Shown in pieces: positions 6,167 through 14,225 of a stretch of 64,000 nucleotides of DNA; position 1 is the stretch's first letter; every line of letters begins with the position of its first letter. The position numbers and the translations under genes are program-made. The DNA comes from Pirellulales bacterium. Lineage in GTDB: Bacteria > Planctomycetota > Planctomycetia > Pirellulales > JAICIG01. The stretch is taken from assembly GCA_035533075.1 (NCBI GenBank), contig DATLUO010000097.1, positions 1 through 64,000 on the forward strand, given 5' to 3'. A model generated the notes under the pieces. It was not told where the DNA came from, made no database searches, and was given only the letters and a program-made list of their open reading frames with translations.

Positions 6167-7228
6167 ATGATCACCCATTACTTCTTGCCCACCGCTGCCA
6201 TCGGACTCATCGTTTTCGCGGCCATGCACGTCGCCGGAGCGTCGAAAGATCCGCCGCTGGCCGAGCCGCCGATCGAACCTTCGCATGCGCCGTTCGCTCG
6301 CGCGGTTGCCGGGGCGGGCATGGTCGAACCGCAAACCGAGAACATCGCCATCGGCTCGCAGGTGCCCGGAGTGGTAACGCAAGTGTTCGTCGAAGTCGGC
6401 CAACGCGTCCAGGCGGGCGATCCGTTGTTCCAGCTCGACGACCGCATTCAGCAGGCCGACTTAAAGGCCAGGCAGGCGACGGCCGCGGCGGCCGAGGCGC
6501 AGTTGACGCAGATGCAGCGGCGGCCGCGGCCCGAGGAGCTGCCGGTGGCCGAAGCACAAGTGGCGGAAATGGAGGCGAACCTGGTCGCCCGCCGCGACTC
6601 GCTGGCGCGGGCTAAGCGGCTTTCGGCCAGCAAGGTGCTGACCGCGGAAGACGTCGTTTCTCGCCAACAGGAATATCAAAAGGCCGAGGCCCAACTCGCC
6701 CGCATGAAAGCCCAGCTCAAACTGCTCGAGGCGGGCACCTGGCAGTATGACCTGCTCGCGCAACAGGCCGCGCTCGACGAGGCGTTGGCGCAGGTCGAAC
6801 AAACGAAAGCCGAAATCGCCGTCCGCACGGTCAGGGCTTTGGTCGAGGGCGAGGTGCTGCAAGTGAACGTGCGGCTGGGCGAGTTCGTGGCGGCGCCGTC
6901 GAATCAGCCGTCGATCGTGCTGGGGAACATCGACTTGCTTCACGTCCGCGTCGACATCGACGAGCACGACATCCACCGATTTTCGGCCAACGCCCCGGCG
7001 GTGGCCACGGTGCGCGGCCGACCCGACCACGAGTTCGCCCTGAAGTTCGTGCGCGTCGAGCCTTACGTGGTGCCCAAGCGATCGCTGACCGGTGACAGCA
7101 CCGAGCGGATCGACACGCGCGTGCTGCAAGTGGTCTACAAGATCGAGTCGAACGGCGAGCGGCTCTACGTCGGCCAGCAGGTCGACGTCTCGATCGGCAT
7201 CGAAGAAGCCGTGCTGGCAAGGCGGTGA
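6167..7228 (+). CDS. HlyD-family periplasmic adaptor (membrane fusion protein)
   Basis: This 353-residue protein has an N-terminal membrane segment (residues about 5-25). A first lipoyl/biotinyl half follows (GSQVPGVVTQVFVEVGQRV, then DPLFQLDDR). A long alpha-helical hairpin rich in Ala, Gln and Glu covers about 95-225, with the returning lipoyl half around VEGEVLQVNVRLGEFV. The C-terminal beta-barrel and membrane-proximal part complete the HlyD/DevB plan. It would bridge the FtsX-type permease and an outer-membrane channel. It is the last gene of the exporter operon. The ABC assignment of the operon is firm; the substrate is unknown. Confidence 0.88.
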   Translation: MITHYFLPTAAIGLIVFAAMHVAGASKDPPLAEPPIEPSHAPFARAVAGAGMVEPQTENIAIGSQVPGVVTQVFVEVGQRVQAGDPLFQLDDRIQQADLKARQATAAAAEAQLTQMQRRPRPEELPVAEAQVAEMEANLVARRDSLARAKRLSASKVLTAEDVVSRQQEYQKAEAQLARMKAQLKLLEAGTWQYDLLAQQAALDEALAQVEQTKAEIAVRTVRALVEGEVLQVNVRLGEFVAAPSNQPSIVLGNIDLLHVRVDIDEHDIHRFSANAPAVATVRGRPDHEFALKFVRVEPYVVPKRSLTGDSTERIDTRVLQVVYKIESNGERLYVGQQVDVSIGIEEAVLARR

Positions 7229-7306
7229 CGTCGCGGCTGCGGCGATTGGCACCGGCTTGCAAATTGCGTGCTGCAGATCGGGTCAAAAGATGATACTGTT
7301 GGTGCT

Positions 7307-9265
7307 ATGGACCATTCGTCGCCGCCGACCGATCGAGGTAACGCCGAACGGTCGTTCCCCGGCGTACCAACCGGTGACGTTCTGTTCTTCGGCCGCTGGT
7401 GGGAGCGTCGCCACACCGCCATTGCGGCGATCACCCTCTTGTGCGTCGTCGCATATCTGATTGCGAAACATGGTTTTGTGATGCGGGAAACCGCGGCCCG
7501 ATGGTCGCTCTGGCTGGCATTGGCCGTCTGCGGCGGGCCGCTCATTGTCGAACTGGCGTTGCGACTGCTTAGAGGTCAATTTGGGTCGGACCTGCTGGCC
7601 GGCATGTCCATCGTTACCGCAATCGTGCTTGGGGAATACTTGGCCGGCGCCCTGGTCGTGCTCATGTTGTCAGGCGGCGCTGCCTTGGAATCCTTCGCCG
7701 TCCGGCGGGCATCGTCCGTTCTTGATGCGTTGGCTCGACGCATGCCGTCGCGGGCCCATCGCCAGACCGAGTCAGGCCTGACGGACATTGCGTTGGAGGA
7801 AATCCGGGTCGGAGATGCGATTGCGGTGTTGCCGCACGAGGTCTGCCCGGTCGATGGCGTGGTGATCAGCGGGCATGGCAGCATGGACGAGGCCTATCTG
7901 ACCGGAGAGCCCTACCGGGTCTCGAAGTCGATCGGGTCGGATGTGCTGTCGGGGGCGATCAACGGTGAGGCTGCCTTGGGCATTCGCGCCGTGCGGTTGC
8001 CTGTCGACTCGCGGTACTCGCGCATCATGCAGGTCATGCAAACGTCGCAGCAGCATCGCCCGCGGCTGCGAAGGCTTGGCGACCAACTCGGCGCCGTCTA
8101 TACACCCATCGCATTAGCCGTGGCATTGGCGGCCTGGCTGGTGAGCGGCGAAGCCACCCGCTTCCTCGCGGTGCTGGTGATTGCAACCCCCTGTCCGCTG
8201 CTGATTGCAATCCCCGTCGCGATTATCGGTTCCATCTCGCTGGCCGCCCGTCGCAGCATCATCATCCGCGATCCGGCGGTCCTCGAGCGGATCGGCCGCT
8301 GCCGTACTATCATCTTCGACAAGACGGGGACCCTGACCTACGGCGAGCCGAGATTGATCGAGCAGTACGTCGACGCCGGCTTCGATCGCAACGAGGTATT
8401 ACGGTTGGCCGCCAGCCTTGAGCAATACTCAAAGCATCCCCTGTCTACGGCAGTCCTCGATGCCGCGAGGGAGCTGCGGCTCCCGCTGGTTGCGGCTGAG
8501 TCGGTTCAGGAACATCCTGGCGAGGGATTGCGGGGAACGGTTGACGGGCGGTTCGTTCGGGTGACGAGCTCGCAGAAGCTGCTGGCCGAGCAACCGGACG
8601 TGGTCGGCCGCTTGCCGCCATCGACCGGTGGACTGCAATGCGTGATCGTGATTGACGGCCGTTACGCCGCCACGTTTCGGTTTCGCGATGAGCCGCGCGC
8701 TGAAGGGGCCGGGTTGATCGGCCACCTCGCACCGATGCACGGGTTTCAGAAAGTCATGCTTGTGTCGGGCGATCGACTATCCGAGGTGCAGTATCTGGGC
8801 GAGCGTGTCGGCATCAGTGAGCTCCACGCCGGCAAAACGCCCGAAGAGAAACTGGCCATCGTGCGTGAAGAGACTTCCCGCAACGATACCCTCTACGTGG
8901 GTGACGGTATCAACGACGCCCCGGCGATGGTTGCCGCCACGGTGGGCCTGGCGATGGGTCAGCGCAGTGAGGTGACCACCGAGGCTGCCGGCGCCGTACT
9001 GATGGATAACATGCTGGGCCGGGTCGACGAATTGCTTCACATCGGTGAGCGGATGCGTCGGATTGCGCTGCAAAGCGCCGTGGGAGGGATGTTGCTGAGT
9101 CTCGTGGGCATGATTCTGGCGGCCTGCGGCTACCTGCCGCCGGTGGCGGGGGCAATCTCGCAGGAGGCGATCGACGTGGTAGCCGTGCTCAACGCCTTGC
9201 GTGCGGCCTGGCCGCAAGGTGCGCTAACCGATTACGGCTCGCGCGTTGAAACTCGCAAGCGGTGA
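7307..9265 (+). CDS. P1B-like heavy-metal-transporting P-type ATPase with TPC motif
   Basis: From the ATG at 7307 the protein has 652 residues; an in-frame GTG at 7268 would add 13. It has no N-terminal Cys-rich metal-binding domain. Motifs: actuator TGEPYRVSK, phosphorylation site [11 protein letters not shown] (Asp at about residue 338), nucleotide-domain HP dipeptide in EQYSKHPLS, and hinge GDGINDAPA. The membrane metal-site motif reads [11 protein letters not shown], so the usual CPC position is TPC (about residues 294-296). This resembles P1B subgroups proposed for ions other than copper. It would pump a transition metal out of the cytoplasm. The metal is unassigned, and no metal regulator gene lies beside it. 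Confidence 0.87.
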
Positions 9266-9277
9266 GGCAATCGTGAA

Positions 9278-10882
9278 TCAGAACTGGTATTTCAGCCCCG
9301 TGGTGATTCCCTGCAACCAGAAGTCGGTGATCACCGACTGGAATTGTGGGGACGCGGGGCCGGTCAATTGTCCGGGCGGGAACTGGGAAGGATTGATGTG
9401 CAGGTCGACCTGGTTGGCCGGCCGGGCCACGCGGCTCCAATACACGACTGTGTATCCGAATGTGGCGCTCAGGCGTCGGGTGAACCGGTATTCGAAAGTG
9501 ACGCCGAGCTCGGGAAGCACTCCGAAGCCACCGAGTTGGTGGCGGCCGATGTTCGTCGGCAGAGCCAACAGCCCTCCCGAAGCGATGCTTGAAGCCTGTG
9601 AAGGAAGCGTTGTGGTCGTTACTCCCTGGACCAGAACCGAAGATTGGCTGTAGCCCAGGGCGATCTTGCACAAAAGGTCGACCGACAAGCGGCCGCGGCG
9701 GCTTTGGGTGGCAATCCCAAAATCCGCTCCGTAGAAATTGTTGGAGCCCCCGAAGAAATCCGAGATGCTCGTGGCGGTCCCTACCGGGACGGCCCCCGTG
9801 GCGGAGATGGACGTCGATTGCGAGTTGACATTGATGTCTTCCGTGAACCGGGCGTAGCGGAAGCCGAAAAGGCCGTCCAGACGGTACTTCGGTTCCCGCA
9901 CTAACGCCGCGCGAAACAGCCCTCCCAGCATGTAGAACTGGTTTTTCAACCTGACATCAAGCGTGCCCGTCTCGAGCCCCGGATAGGCCACGAGTGACGA
10001 GTCTTGTGCCCCGGTTTGGGCGTTGATGAAGGGCTGTGCAAGGATGGGATTGGTTTGATCCGAGGCGTGAAATCCCGCCGACGCCGATCCCGCGGTAAAA
10101 TACGTGGCCTCGAATCCGAACTTCTGGCTAGGGGAATGCCACCAGCCAACGGTGAACCGGGCGCCCGCCCGAGTGCTCGAATTGACCATCTGATCGCCAT
10201 AGAGCAGCGTCGTGCCTTGCGCGCCGAGAACGCCGGCCTGCGCCTGAGCCGTGCCAATCGGACTTGTGGTGGCTAGGGCCGGCAGGTCGGCGCCTTTGCC
10301 CCAAAGCAGCAGGAATTCGGCACGGCCCCAGAGCCGGCCGCCGGGGGCGTACCAGGGGTCGGGCTCATATTGATCCGGCGAAGGGGCCATCTGCCACGCG
10401 GGCACGTTGTTGTCTACGTAGGGCAGTACAATCTCTTCGCCCTCGGGCAAGGCGCCTAGCACTTCCCATTCCGGCAAGTTCTGCTGAGCGACGGACCGAG
10501 CGCTTCCAGTCCTCTGGGGAGAATAGCCTGGCGTCTGCCATTCGGGCAAGTTGTCCTCGACGACGGGTCGAACAATTGCAGGCCCCTGGCGCGGCGGATG
10601 TGGCATCGGCCGTTGGCGCGAGTTGTTCTCGACGACGCGGCGGGAAACCCGATTCTCGCGCTCCATGACAAGCGGCCAGTTCTGACTTTGCCAGGGAGCG
10701 GGATCGGCAGCATCCTCTTGCACGACCGACGGCTTCGACGCGGCCCTCGTCTGCGCCGCTGCCGGCCGGTTGCCTGACAGCCATGCCGCCGCCAGCACCA
10801 CGACAACCGCGGCCCACCGCACGGCCGGCCGGGCGCCATCCGCAAACGACGTCGCGTGTCGCGAGATGCGATGGATCGTCAT
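9278..10882 (-). CDS. BBP7-family outer-membrane beta-barrel protein with N-terminal PxW repeats
   Basis: The protein is about 534 residues from the ATG at 10882; an ATG at 10903 is also possible. A signal segment (WAAVVVVLAAAWLSG, cleavage near AAAQ) precedes a linker. The linker holds four or five degenerate repeats of about 30-35 residues built on V-x-x-N-x-P-x-W, for example VVEDNLPEWQ, VAQQNLPEWE and VDNNVPAWQ. The rest starts GGRLWGRAEFLLLWGKG and is a Gly/aromatic-rich beta-barrel ending in LKYQF, a typical outer-membrane C-terminus. It looks like the BBP7 family common in Pirellulales. Its function in that family is unknown. It follows the cytochrome-porin gene on the same strand and may be co-transcribed with it. 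Confidence 0.8.
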   Translation of the reverse strand: MTIHRISRHATSFADGARPAVRWAAVVVVLAAAWLSGNRPAAAQTRAASKPSVVQEDAADPAPWQSQNWPLVMERENRVSRRVVENNSRQRPMPHPPRQGPAIVRPVVEDNLPEWQTPGYSPQRTGSARSVAQQNLPEWEVLGALPEGEEIVLPYVDNNVPAWQMAPSPDQYEPDPWYAPGGRLWGRAEFLLLWGKGADLPALATTSPIGTAQAQAGVLGAQGTTLLYGDQMVNSSTRAGARFTVGWWHSPSQKFGFEATYFTAGSASAGFHASDQTNPILAQPFINAQTGAQDSSLVAYPGLETGTLDVRLKNQFYMLGGLFRAALVREPKYRLDGLFGFRYARFTEDINVNSQSTSISATGAVPVGTATSISDFFGGSNNFYGADFGIATQSRRGRLSVDLLCKIALGYSQSSVLVQGVTTTTLPSQASSIASGGLLALPTNIGRHQLGGFGVLPELGVTFEYRFTRRLSATFGYTVVYWSRVARPANQVDLHINPSQFPPGQLTGPASPQFQSVITDFWLQGITTGLKYQF

Positions 10883-10963
10883 GGCTTTACACGTTTTTGA
10901 CATTTGCCACACTCGTCCCGGACACCGGTTCGCGCCGATTACCGCTCGCTACATGCTCACGAT

Positions 10964-12601
10964 TCAGAATGTCACCGCCCAACGAACACCGAGGATGTCA
11001 ACACTGCCAAGACTATGGGGCAGGAACCAATGTTCCTCGTTCACCATCAACAGGCTGCCGCCCGGTAGCGTCCAGTTCACGCCATAGGTGAATCGCTGCA
11101 CCGTGAAACTTCCGGTCGTGAGGGTGCTGCCGGGAGGCGGCAGCAAGCTTTGCGTCGACTGCGAGTCGTACCGTGCCAGGAAACTCATATTCCAACGCCG
11201 GGAAATCAGCGCCTCGCCTTCCAGGTATAAGCCGCCGACTCGCTCGGTGAAAATGTTGGCGGGGACGGTTCCGACCCGGCCCGAATTGCGCTGCGCGTAC
11301 TCAAACTGCACGCGTAGCCGGTCTTTCCAGCGGAATGTCGCGTCGGCCCCGAAAATAAGGTAGTTCAATACCTGGTTGGTTGGGCTTGCCGCACTCGTAT
11401 TGAAGCTTCCCCCCGTCACGGACGCTCCCAGCCGCAGGTGCTGTCCCCCGATCGTAACCCTCCCGCCGCCGGCAGGCCGATTGTTGCCATAGTACTGTTG
11501 CCGCGTGAGAACAAAGTCGACGCCGTTGGAAGACCCTTGCAGGCCGTTGACGAGGTAGGCGTCGAACGTGGCATTTGCGTTCTCCGCGATCGGTAGACCA
11601 AGCGAAAGATTCGCCCCGGTATCCGCATAGGGCATCGGCAAGACCGGAAAGCCCAAGGGGCCTGCGCTCAGGCTGGTGGCAAAGACCCGCTCGCCCATGT
11701 TGTAGATCAGGGGCATGCTCACCGTGCGGTAAACGCCGGGGTTCGACTGCTGATAAAAGGCTCCGAAGGGGACGATGAACCGCCCGGCATCGATCGCCAC
11801 GTCGGCCTCCGGCTCGCTCTGGGACGGGCGAGTACAACTACGAGACCGCAGATACTTGGTGATGTCGAACCGGACCGCGGCCTCGACCAGGTCGAGTTTG
11901 GCCTCGTTATGGCAGGTTGTGCAGGCGGTGGCCCGGGCACTGACAGGTCCATCGCCTTGCCAGGTGCCGCCGATCCATAAACCGGGGAAGAAGCCGGGAT
12001 CCTGCACGGCGTTGCCACCGCCGCCGCGCCACCAGGGAGAGAAGGTGCCCCAGAAAGAGAATGGCGACCCGGCGTCGGCCGCCGCGGTCCCGGCCTCCTT
12101 TCCCCCGTTTGCCGCTGTTTCGCCACTTGCGCTTTGGTTGCGAGACGCGAGGTAGGTGGCGATCGACTCGTGGACGTTGCCCGGAATCTCCGCATCCGGC
12201 TTGCCGGCCATGCGCCGCACGGTGGTCCGCCAGCCGGCGAGGTTCTTAGTTGCCTGCAGGGCCTTCTGAGCGTCGTGGCACGAAGTGCAATGGCGGTTGA
12301 AGGCTGTTTCGCCTGCTTGAACGACCGAGGCGTCGAAGCCCTGGCCGGAACCGCCGGTCGATTTTGTCTTCGTGCCGTCGCCGTTGCCCAGAGGGGCTTG
12401 AGAGGCGGACGCGGCGTCTGCTGCGTCGGACTGCGCCCTCTGCGGCGATGGCGCGCTTGCCCTGGCGTATCGCGAGGCCACGCCGCCGCTAGCGGCAAAA
12501 AACGGCGATCGGCTGTCGTCGTCGGCGTCCGCTCGCGGAGCAAGGAGGCAGGCCCAAAGCGAAACGACAAGCGGCGCGCAGGTGAAAGTCCGACAATTCA
12601 T
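10964..12601 (-). CDS. Di-haem c-type cytochrome fused to an outer-membrane porin-like barrel
   Basis: The protein has 545 residues with a signal peptide (VVSLWACLLAPRADA). An N-terminal cytochrome c-like region carries CTSCH at residues 105-109 and a Met in RRMAGKP at 131 that could be the distal ligand. A second haem motif, CTTCH, lies at 227-231 after a Gly/Trp-rich linker. From about residue 245 to the end the sequence alternates like a beta-barrel (DAGRFIVPFGAF, LRVQFEYAQRN, FTYGVNWTLPG) and ends in Phe (VRWAVTF). The first half resembles periplasmic cytochromes, the second a porin. This layout recalls fused cytochrome-porins such as Cyc2, which move electrons across the outer membrane. 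The homology is not tested and the electron-transfer role is inference. Confidence 0.75.
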   Translation of the reverse strand: MNCRTFTCAPLVVSLWACLLAPRADADDDSRSPFFAASGGVASRYARASAPSPQRAQSDAADAASASQAPLGNGDGTKTKSTGGSGQGFDASVVQAGETAFNRHCTSCHDAQKALQATKNLAGWRTTVRRMAGKPDAEIPGNVHESIATYLASRNQSASGETAANGGKEAGTAAADAGSPFSFWGTFSPWWRGGGGNAVQDPGFFPGLWIGGTWQGDGPVSARATACTTCHNEAKLDLVEAAVRFDITKYLRSRSCTRPSQSEPEADVAIDAGRFIVPFGAFYQQSNPGVYRTVSMPLIYNMGERVFATSLSAGPLGFPVLPMPYADTGANLSLGLPIAENANATFDAYLVNGLQGSSNGVDFVLTRQQYYGNNRPAGGGRVTIGGQHLRLGASVTGGSFNTSAASPTNQVLNYLIFGADATFRWKDRLRVQFEYAQRNSGRVGTVPANIFTERVGGLYLEGEALISRRWNMSFLARYDSQSTQSLLPPPGSTLTTGSFTVQRFTYGVNWTLPGGSLLMVNEEHWFLPHSLGSVDILGVRWAVTF

Positions 12602-12920: not shown

Positions 12921-14225
12921 TTGAGCCGGCACAGCCTTCATTTCTGCGTGGTCAGCAGCGCGGCACTTGTTGCTTTCATCCTCAGTGGAGACGCCGACGC
13001 GCAATACTCCCCGTCCAACCTTACGGAACCGTCTCCTTATGCGCGGCCCGGCGCGGCCGCGCTGCCCGCTCCGGCGCAGCCCTTCCAGTCCGCCCCGAAT
13101 GCCTACGGCACTGCTCCGGCCGGCGTCCAGCAACCGAGCTATCCGGCCTCCTTTGCGCCGCCCACCGGTCGCGGGCCGGCGCCGCCCGGCATGCAGCCTT
13201 ACCCGCCAAATCAAAATCAAAACGTGCAGGGCATGCCCCAGCAGGATCTCTCGCAACTCTCCTATCTGAATGGGCCGCCCGCCAACCAAGCGATGCAAAC
13301 GCCGCCGGCGGCTCCCGCTTGCACTCAGTGCCAGGACGGCTCGTGCGACAACTGCCGCGCCGGAGCCGGCGACGTTGCGGTTGGCCAGGACGGCCCGCGA
13401 TTCGGCTTCGAAGCATTGCAGCTTTTCGACACCTTTCGTGGTCCGCCCGAAGGTTCGGGGCCAAGCAATTTTGGCGAGGTGACGCGCGCGAACGCCGGCG
13501 TGCCGATCTTCGAGGCCTGGGGAATCGGCTGGCAACTGGGAGCCAGCTATGGCATTTACGACTTCAGCGGCCGACCGCCGCCCGCCACGGAAACGAGCGG
13601 CGCGCAGCAGCAGGTTTTCGTGACCACCGGCTTTTTCCGCCGCGCAAAGGAGGGCCAGCGCGCCAGCTTCGGCCTTGTTCACGACTGGATGATCAACAAC
13701 AATTACTCGCAGTACGCCGTTTCGCCCACGATCAGTCAGTGGCGCGGACAATTCGAGTGGGCGCTGAGTGGCCGGAACTCATTTGGCGTGTGGGGGACGT
13801 GGCACGACAAGAGCTTTATCCGCGACGTCCCCGACAATCACAACCAGTTTCGCGCCATCAGTCAGATCAACGCCTTTTGGCACCACAAATATGAATTCGG
13901 AGCCGACACCTGGCTCCGCGTCGGGTTGCCGGTCTCGAAGGAACTGGTAGGAAATGCGCTGGCCGGCTCGGCGATCATCGGCGCGACGGCGCAGCTGCCT
14001 CTCAATCACCAGCTTGCCCTGTATGCCAACGCCATGTATATGGCTCCCAATACGTCGGCCGGTCCGATCGGTTCGGCCAGCGACGCCTACAACGTTTCGA
14101 TGGGGATCGCTTGGTATCCGGGCCGCAACGCTCGAACCCCGACCGTCAACGGCAGCCGTTGGCTGCCCTACATGCCGCTGGGCAACAATAGCAACTTCTT
14201 GGTCGACTCCAGTCATTTCGACTGA
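12921..14225 (+). CDS. Secreted DUF6666-like protein with Pro-rich N-terminus
   Basis: The protein has 434 residues and starts at TTG 12921, chosen because CGGAGG lies 8 bp upstream and the next residues form a signal peptide (VVSSAALVAFILSGDADAQ). Residues about 30-120 are rich in Pro, Ala and Gln. A short Cys cluster follows (CTQCQDGSCDNC). From about residue 150 it changes to a beta-rich domain (FGFEALQLFDTFRGPPEGSGPSNFGE, cited in parts) with many aromatic residues, ending LVDSSHFD. This looks like the planctomycete DUF6666 family, probably periplasmic or outer-membrane-associated. The function is unknown. The family name is from memory and untested. Confidence 0.65.
   Translation: MSRHSLHFCVVSSAALVAFILSGDADAQYSPSNLTEPSPYARPGAAALPAPAQPFQSAPNAYGTAPAGVQQPSYPASFAPPTGRGPAPPGMQPYPPNQNQNVQGMPQQDLSQLSYLNGPPANQAMQTPPAAPACTQCQDGSCDNCRAGAGDVAVGQDGPRFGFEALQLFDTFRGPPEGSGPSNFGEVTRANAGVPIFEAWGIGWQLGASYGIYDFSGRPPPATETSGAQQQVFVTTGFFRRAKEGQRASFGLVHDWMINNNYSQYAVSPTISQWRGQFEWALSGRNSFGVWGTWHDKSFIRDVPDNHNQFRAISQINAFWHHKYEFGADTWLRVGLPVSKELVGNALAGSAIIGATAQLPLNHQLALYANAMYMAPNTSAGPIGSASDAYNVSMGIAWYPGRNARTPTVNGSRWLPYMPLGNNSNFLVDSSHFD

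Follow-up and report, generated by a model that had tools for sequence, protein, structure and literature searches.

A putative cytochrome c-porin fusion from a Pirellulales bacterium with a candidate haem site in its barrel

A cytochrome domain joined to a predicted porin-type barrel

Does the protein encoded at 10964-12601 of this contig join a c-type cytochrome to an outer-membrane barrel, and could such a protein pass electrons across the membrane? The gene (P0001) lies on the minus strand of the window (the whole stretch of 64,000 nucleotides analyzed), has its stop codon at 10964-10966, and encodes 545 amino acids. An earlier note on this DNA had reported CxxCH motifs at residues 105-109 and 227-231 and a terminal Phe; all are exact in the ORF translation, the motifs being CTSCH and CTTCH, respectively. 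The pair of motifs is far above chance at the composition of P0001 (0.0013 CxxCH expected per shuffled protein; two CxxCH in 0 of 200,000 shuffles). The features discussed below are as follows.

10964..12601, minus strand: whole gene P0001, predicted cytochrome c-porin fusion (homologues at 42-54% identity)
12524..12601, minus strand: likely N-terminal signal peptide, residues 1-26 (read by eye)
12137..12328, minus strand: predicted monohaem cytochrome c domain, residues 92-155 (weak Pfam/NCBIfam matches: Cytochrome_CBB3, SorB)
12275..12289, minus strand: haem motif 1, CTSCH, residues 105-109 (kept by 9/9 relatives covering it)
12209..12211, minus strand: Met131, candidate axial ligand of haem 1 (conserved in every relative covering it)
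10967..12055, minus strand: predicted Porin_O_P-like beta-barrel, residues 183-545 (aligned by hhalign with PF07396 porins of Pirellulales)
11909..11923, minus strand: haem motif 2, CTTCH, residues 227-231, end of strand 3/loop L2 (invariant in 26 barrels; position from alignment)
11696..11698, minus strand: Met302, candidate axial ligand of haem 2, loop L3 (invariant in 26 CxxCH barrels, missing from 7 without CxxCH)
9278..10912, minus strand: BBP7 barrel gene downstream of P0001 (51 bases past the stop; PF07585, 3e-104)

Residues 1-26 (MNCRTFTCAPLVVSLWACLLAPRADA) are likely a Sec signal peptide, as read by eye. Matches to the cytochrome domain reach 1e-8 in relatives of P0001, and CxxCH 105-109 is kept together with Met131 in all nine relatives that cover this region; Met131 would thus be a candidate to ligate haem 1. 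Three relatives (L002, L004, and L028) carry three CxxCH because each has two N-terminal cytochrome domains. Homologues lacking CxxCH had been named in the earlier note as one observation that would count against the proposed conduit; among the close relatives, motif 1 is present in 9/9 that cover it and motif 2 in 10/10.

P0001 matched no porin family in Pfam, with Porin_O_P below its gathering cut-off, and its barrel part reached no Pfam family at that family's cut-off. A NCBIfam scan of 26 barrels containing CxxCH (22-55% identical to the P0001 barrel) returned no family, and the PDB gave no relevant match by sequence or by barrel profile. The profile of these 26 barrels matched that of 20 Pirellulales Porin_O_P porins at 93.5% (hhalign, E = 2.4e-7), and a profile of the unfused and CxxCH-less members matched Porin_O_P at 96.1% (E = 3e-9). 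BBP7, a barrel family from the same genome, gave 0.6%, which is a weak control because its profile was built from two sequences. Two members without CxxCH (L065 and L059) are above the PF07396 cut-off of Pfam, and one with CxxCH (L050) is slightly under it (20.1 vs 20.9). By these profiles the C-terminal part of P0001 is collinear with Porin_O_P over most of the barrel and falls within that superfamily. Since AlphaFold failed on a two-sequence input (P0001 and L016, pLDDT 27), the predicted fold is drawn entirely from the profiles. A terminal aromatic residue is found in nearly all family members, and P0001 would be located in the outer membrane. The fusion of a c-type cytochrome domain to a predicted outer-membrane porin-type barrel is well supported.

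A haem motif and a methionine within the barrel

The earlier note had placed both CxxCH motifs ahead of the barrel, a position for CxxCH 227-231 that we abandoned once the alignments showed it to be barrel-internal, after the first strands and before the AGRFIVPFG strand. The stretch SFWGTFSPWWRGGGG, previously read as a Gly/Trp linker, aligns as barrel strand 1 and its loop. On the Porin_O_P alignment, CxxCH is at the end of strand 3, entering loop L2, and the Met302 column is in loop L3, the inward-folding constriction loop of OprP and OprO.

Across the 26 CxxCH barrels there are 22 invariant columns, among which the only residues capable of serving as axial ligands are the His of CxxCH and Met302; no column outside CxxCH and Met302 is composed throughout of such residues. 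Both CxxCH 227-231 and Met302 are conserved in all ten close relatives, and one CxxCH at the same site is also present in the separate barrel proteins of distant members (L049, L051-L053, and L055-L057; 364-412 aa). The seven related barrels without CxxCH (L054, L058, L059, L062, L065, L067, and L074) have no Met in the Met302 column; L054 has a Met one residue off it. In the tree, CxxCH barrels form a single group (90/81), so that CxxCH and Met302 sit on one branch and their co-occurrence reflects a single gain or loss and counts as evidence only once. Haem 2 would be a His/Met haem formed at CxxCH 227-231 with Met302.

Distribution, gene clusters, and surroundings

Of 57 genomes searched with the protein, 10 gave matches (42-54% identity), the window's own among them. 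With a profile, barrel relatives turned up in 16 of the order's 396 genomes, again counting the window's own; the remaining matches covered the cytochrome domain only and were excluded from the 16. The close relatives come from the same order, with one relative in a Planctomycetaceae genome, and barrel relatives are scattered through further classes of Planctomycetota; the distribution across the phylum is patchy. Searching genome contigs with one protein returned L016 as the sole match, and viral contigs contained no relatives of P0001. By sequence comparison, P0001 belongs to a conserved Planctomycetota family outside Pfam and NCBIfam, and no description of this family was found in open-access PMC papers. 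The window's own genome also contains a second, partial copy (L011, G000:C165:2302-2673) that covers the last 124 barrel residues, shares 77% identity with L004 (from a related genus), and is preceded by an unrelated ORF; it is probably a remnant.

In other planctomycetes the cytochrome and the barrel are encoded separately. At six loci (L092, L094, and L096-L099), the first gene encodes a lipoprotein-type protein whose C-terminal part has a cytochrome motif; a CxxCH barrel comes next, and then a small lipobox monohaem cytochrome that resembles the N-terminal domain of P0001 (lipoboxes were read by eye, one being atypical, and a contig end truncates one of the upstream proteins). In the two upstream proteins that were scanned, a PSCyt1 domain (8e-8 and 1e-7) accompanies Big_2 Ig-like domains. 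In L050, a domain like the small cluster cytochrome is fused before the barrel, yet L050 is placed within the unfused clade, and the two parts have thus been joined or split at least twice. Such repeated fusion suggests that the cytochrome and the barrel act together. Two further clusters (L100 and L101, with barrels L054 and L058) pair a barrel lacking CxxCH with genes for a monohaem cytochrome and a lipoprotein of PSCyt1 type; they may represent a form of the system that has no haem in its pore. In another lineage, L059 and L062 are Porin_O_P-type barrels without CxxCH that have monohaem cytochrome genes on either side.

At the Pirellulales loci there is no conserved redox neighbor or surface cytochrome adjoining the gene; only the pairing with BBP7 recurs, in two genomes. 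A BBP7 gene follows the P0001 relative in the same direction in G051, as in the window, and this neighbor is the best BBP7 match in that genome (49%, the next being 41% or less). The BBP7 gene is a possible co-transcribed partner of P0001. On its other side, P0001 is flanked by a gene for a DUF6666 protein (12921-14225, 1e-30), predicted to belong to the envelope. Genes for an HlyD-type protein and then a P-type ATPase (E1-E2) are found at 6167-9265, convergent with the BBP7 gene; they are not conserved near relatives. All six genomes tested encode a member of PF01578, a c-haem assembly family.

Proposed working, alternatives, and known systems

The reading we favor, and consider rather probable, is that P0001 is an outer-membrane electron conduit combining a pore haem in a Porin_O_P-type barrel with a periplasmic monohaem cytochrome c. 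It is based on the conserved family, the invariance of CxxCH and Met302, the Porin_O_P profile, the clusters, the repeated fusion, and the presence of PF01578. The N-terminal cytochrome (haem 1, His109/Met131) would sit at the periplasmic mouth of the barrel, and haem 2 would be bound covalently to CxxCH 227-231 where strand 3 enters loop L2, with Met302 of the constriction loop L3 capping it and placing it in the pore. Electrons might then move by way of haem 1 and haem 2 between the periplasm and an external donor or acceptor; in some relatives the external partner could be the PSCyt1-containing lipoprotein at the surface. Haem attachment, axial ligands, pore position, outer-membrane location, direction, and substrate are all inferred from sequence in this model. 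Two haems may be insufficient to bridge the membrane without a further carrier. Of the earlier proposal of a haem protein fused to a porin-like barrel as a conduit, the fusion is borne out by the conserved family, the Porin_O_P profile, the clusters, and the fusions, whereas conduction is a functional reading of them.

Some of the same observations would suit other functions. Members of Porin_O_P serve as transport channels, one haem at the constriction would suit gating, and no redox partner adjoins the gene in Pirellulales, so P0001 might be a haem-bearing outer-membrane enzyme or redox-gated porin, performing small-molecule redox or gating with no electron path across the membrane. We regard this as unlikely, given that the invariant Met302 suggests a six-coordinate electron-transfer haem and that the unfused cluster apparently has a cytochrome on either side. 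Somewhat less likely still is that the barrel CxxCH and Met bind copper or zinc in a metal channel or sensor, with the cytochrome serving reduction. Cys2-His-Met is a plausible Cu(I) ligand set, and P-type ATPase and HlyD genes are close by, but these genes are not conserved beside relatives, and the invariant CxxCH is the exact haem c signature, adjoining or fused to monohaem cytochromes. That P0001 consists of a soluble cytochrome domain and a non-barrel domain, with no membrane conduit, would accord with the two-sequence AlphaFold model (pLDDT 27) but is hardly credible in view of the profile relation to Porin_O_P (93.5-96%), the likely signal peptide, and the C-terminal aromatic residue of nearly all members.

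Known outer-membrane conduits have either a separate multihaem cytochrome running through a large barrel (Mtr/Mto/Pio) or one haem before a small barrel (Cyc2), and to our knowledge few extracellular electron transfer systems have been recognized in Planctomycetota. If the conduit reading is true, a porin whose loops themselves hold a haem would add a third layout, working in single-haem steps, and CxxCH after strand 3 together with the L3 Met would be a searchable signature of planctomycete outer-membrane redox. We give about even chances to the wider proposal that the porin is itself a cytochrome, with haem c at strand 3/L2, an L3 Met ligand, a fused or separate periplasmic monohaem cytochrome, and in some lineages a PSCyt1 surface lipoprotein, which together would form a one-haem-per-step wire and a new minimal class of conduit.

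Could P0001 instead be an iron oxidase of the Cyc2 type, a fused cytochrome-porin that carries an additional haem? In both, a c-type cytochrome at the N terminus is fused to an outer-membrane barrel resembling Porin_O_P, the Cyc2 porin being modeled on OprO/OprP (PMC8406198), and a Cyc2 gene has been reported from one Bythopirellula MAG (PMC10732223). This barrel superfamily is, however, widespread in the planctomycete genomes examined (37/39). The defining features of Cyc2 are the motifs AXPXFAR[Q/K][T/Y] and PXL, placed around one CxxCH that precedes the porin (PMC8406198). P.FAR was found in 0 of 33 proteins, and none of the 33 has P.L within 12 residues after any CxxCH (PXL being expected four residues past it). 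Full-length fused members of the P0001 family have two or three CxxCH, whereas Cyc2 has one; its haem precedes the barrel, whereas the P0001 family has a CxxCH within the barrel and an invariant L3 Met. The N-terminal domain of P0001, unlike that of Cyc2, resembles ordinary monohaem cytochromes. The Cyc2 barrel is a 16-stranded OprO/OprP-like one; the profile of the P0001 family matches Porin_O_P, and its barrel may be of that kind. Membership in Cyc2 is therefore very improbable: with its motifs absent from all 33 proteins and the haem positions differing, the P0001 family shares the outline of Cyc2 without belonging to it. The earlier note's suggestion of a Cyc2-like protein in a different arrangement is consistent with this as to the outline and the extra haem motif; what it lacked is that the barrel itself contains one of the haem sites.

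P0001 is likewise not Mtr-like. The MtrCAB, MtoAB, and PioAB systems share with it a barrel and a periplasmic cytochrome, to which the unfused clusters add a candidate surface cytochrome, but the P0001 family has one haem motif per cytochrome domain, not ten. In MtrAB-type systems a decahaem cytochrome lies within a 26-strand barrel (PMC8406198, PMC10654088), whereas the P0001 barrel is smaller (363 residues), of Porin_O_P type, and has a haem motif in the barrel itself. The PSCyt1 (PF07635) cytochromes belong to the unfused clusters, and P0001's own cytochrome domain is of another type. The barrel resembles Porin_O_P (PF07396; OprP/OprO), with which it is collinear by profile over most of its length, although P0001 is below Pfam detection and CxxCH is found in 0 of the 20 porins examined.
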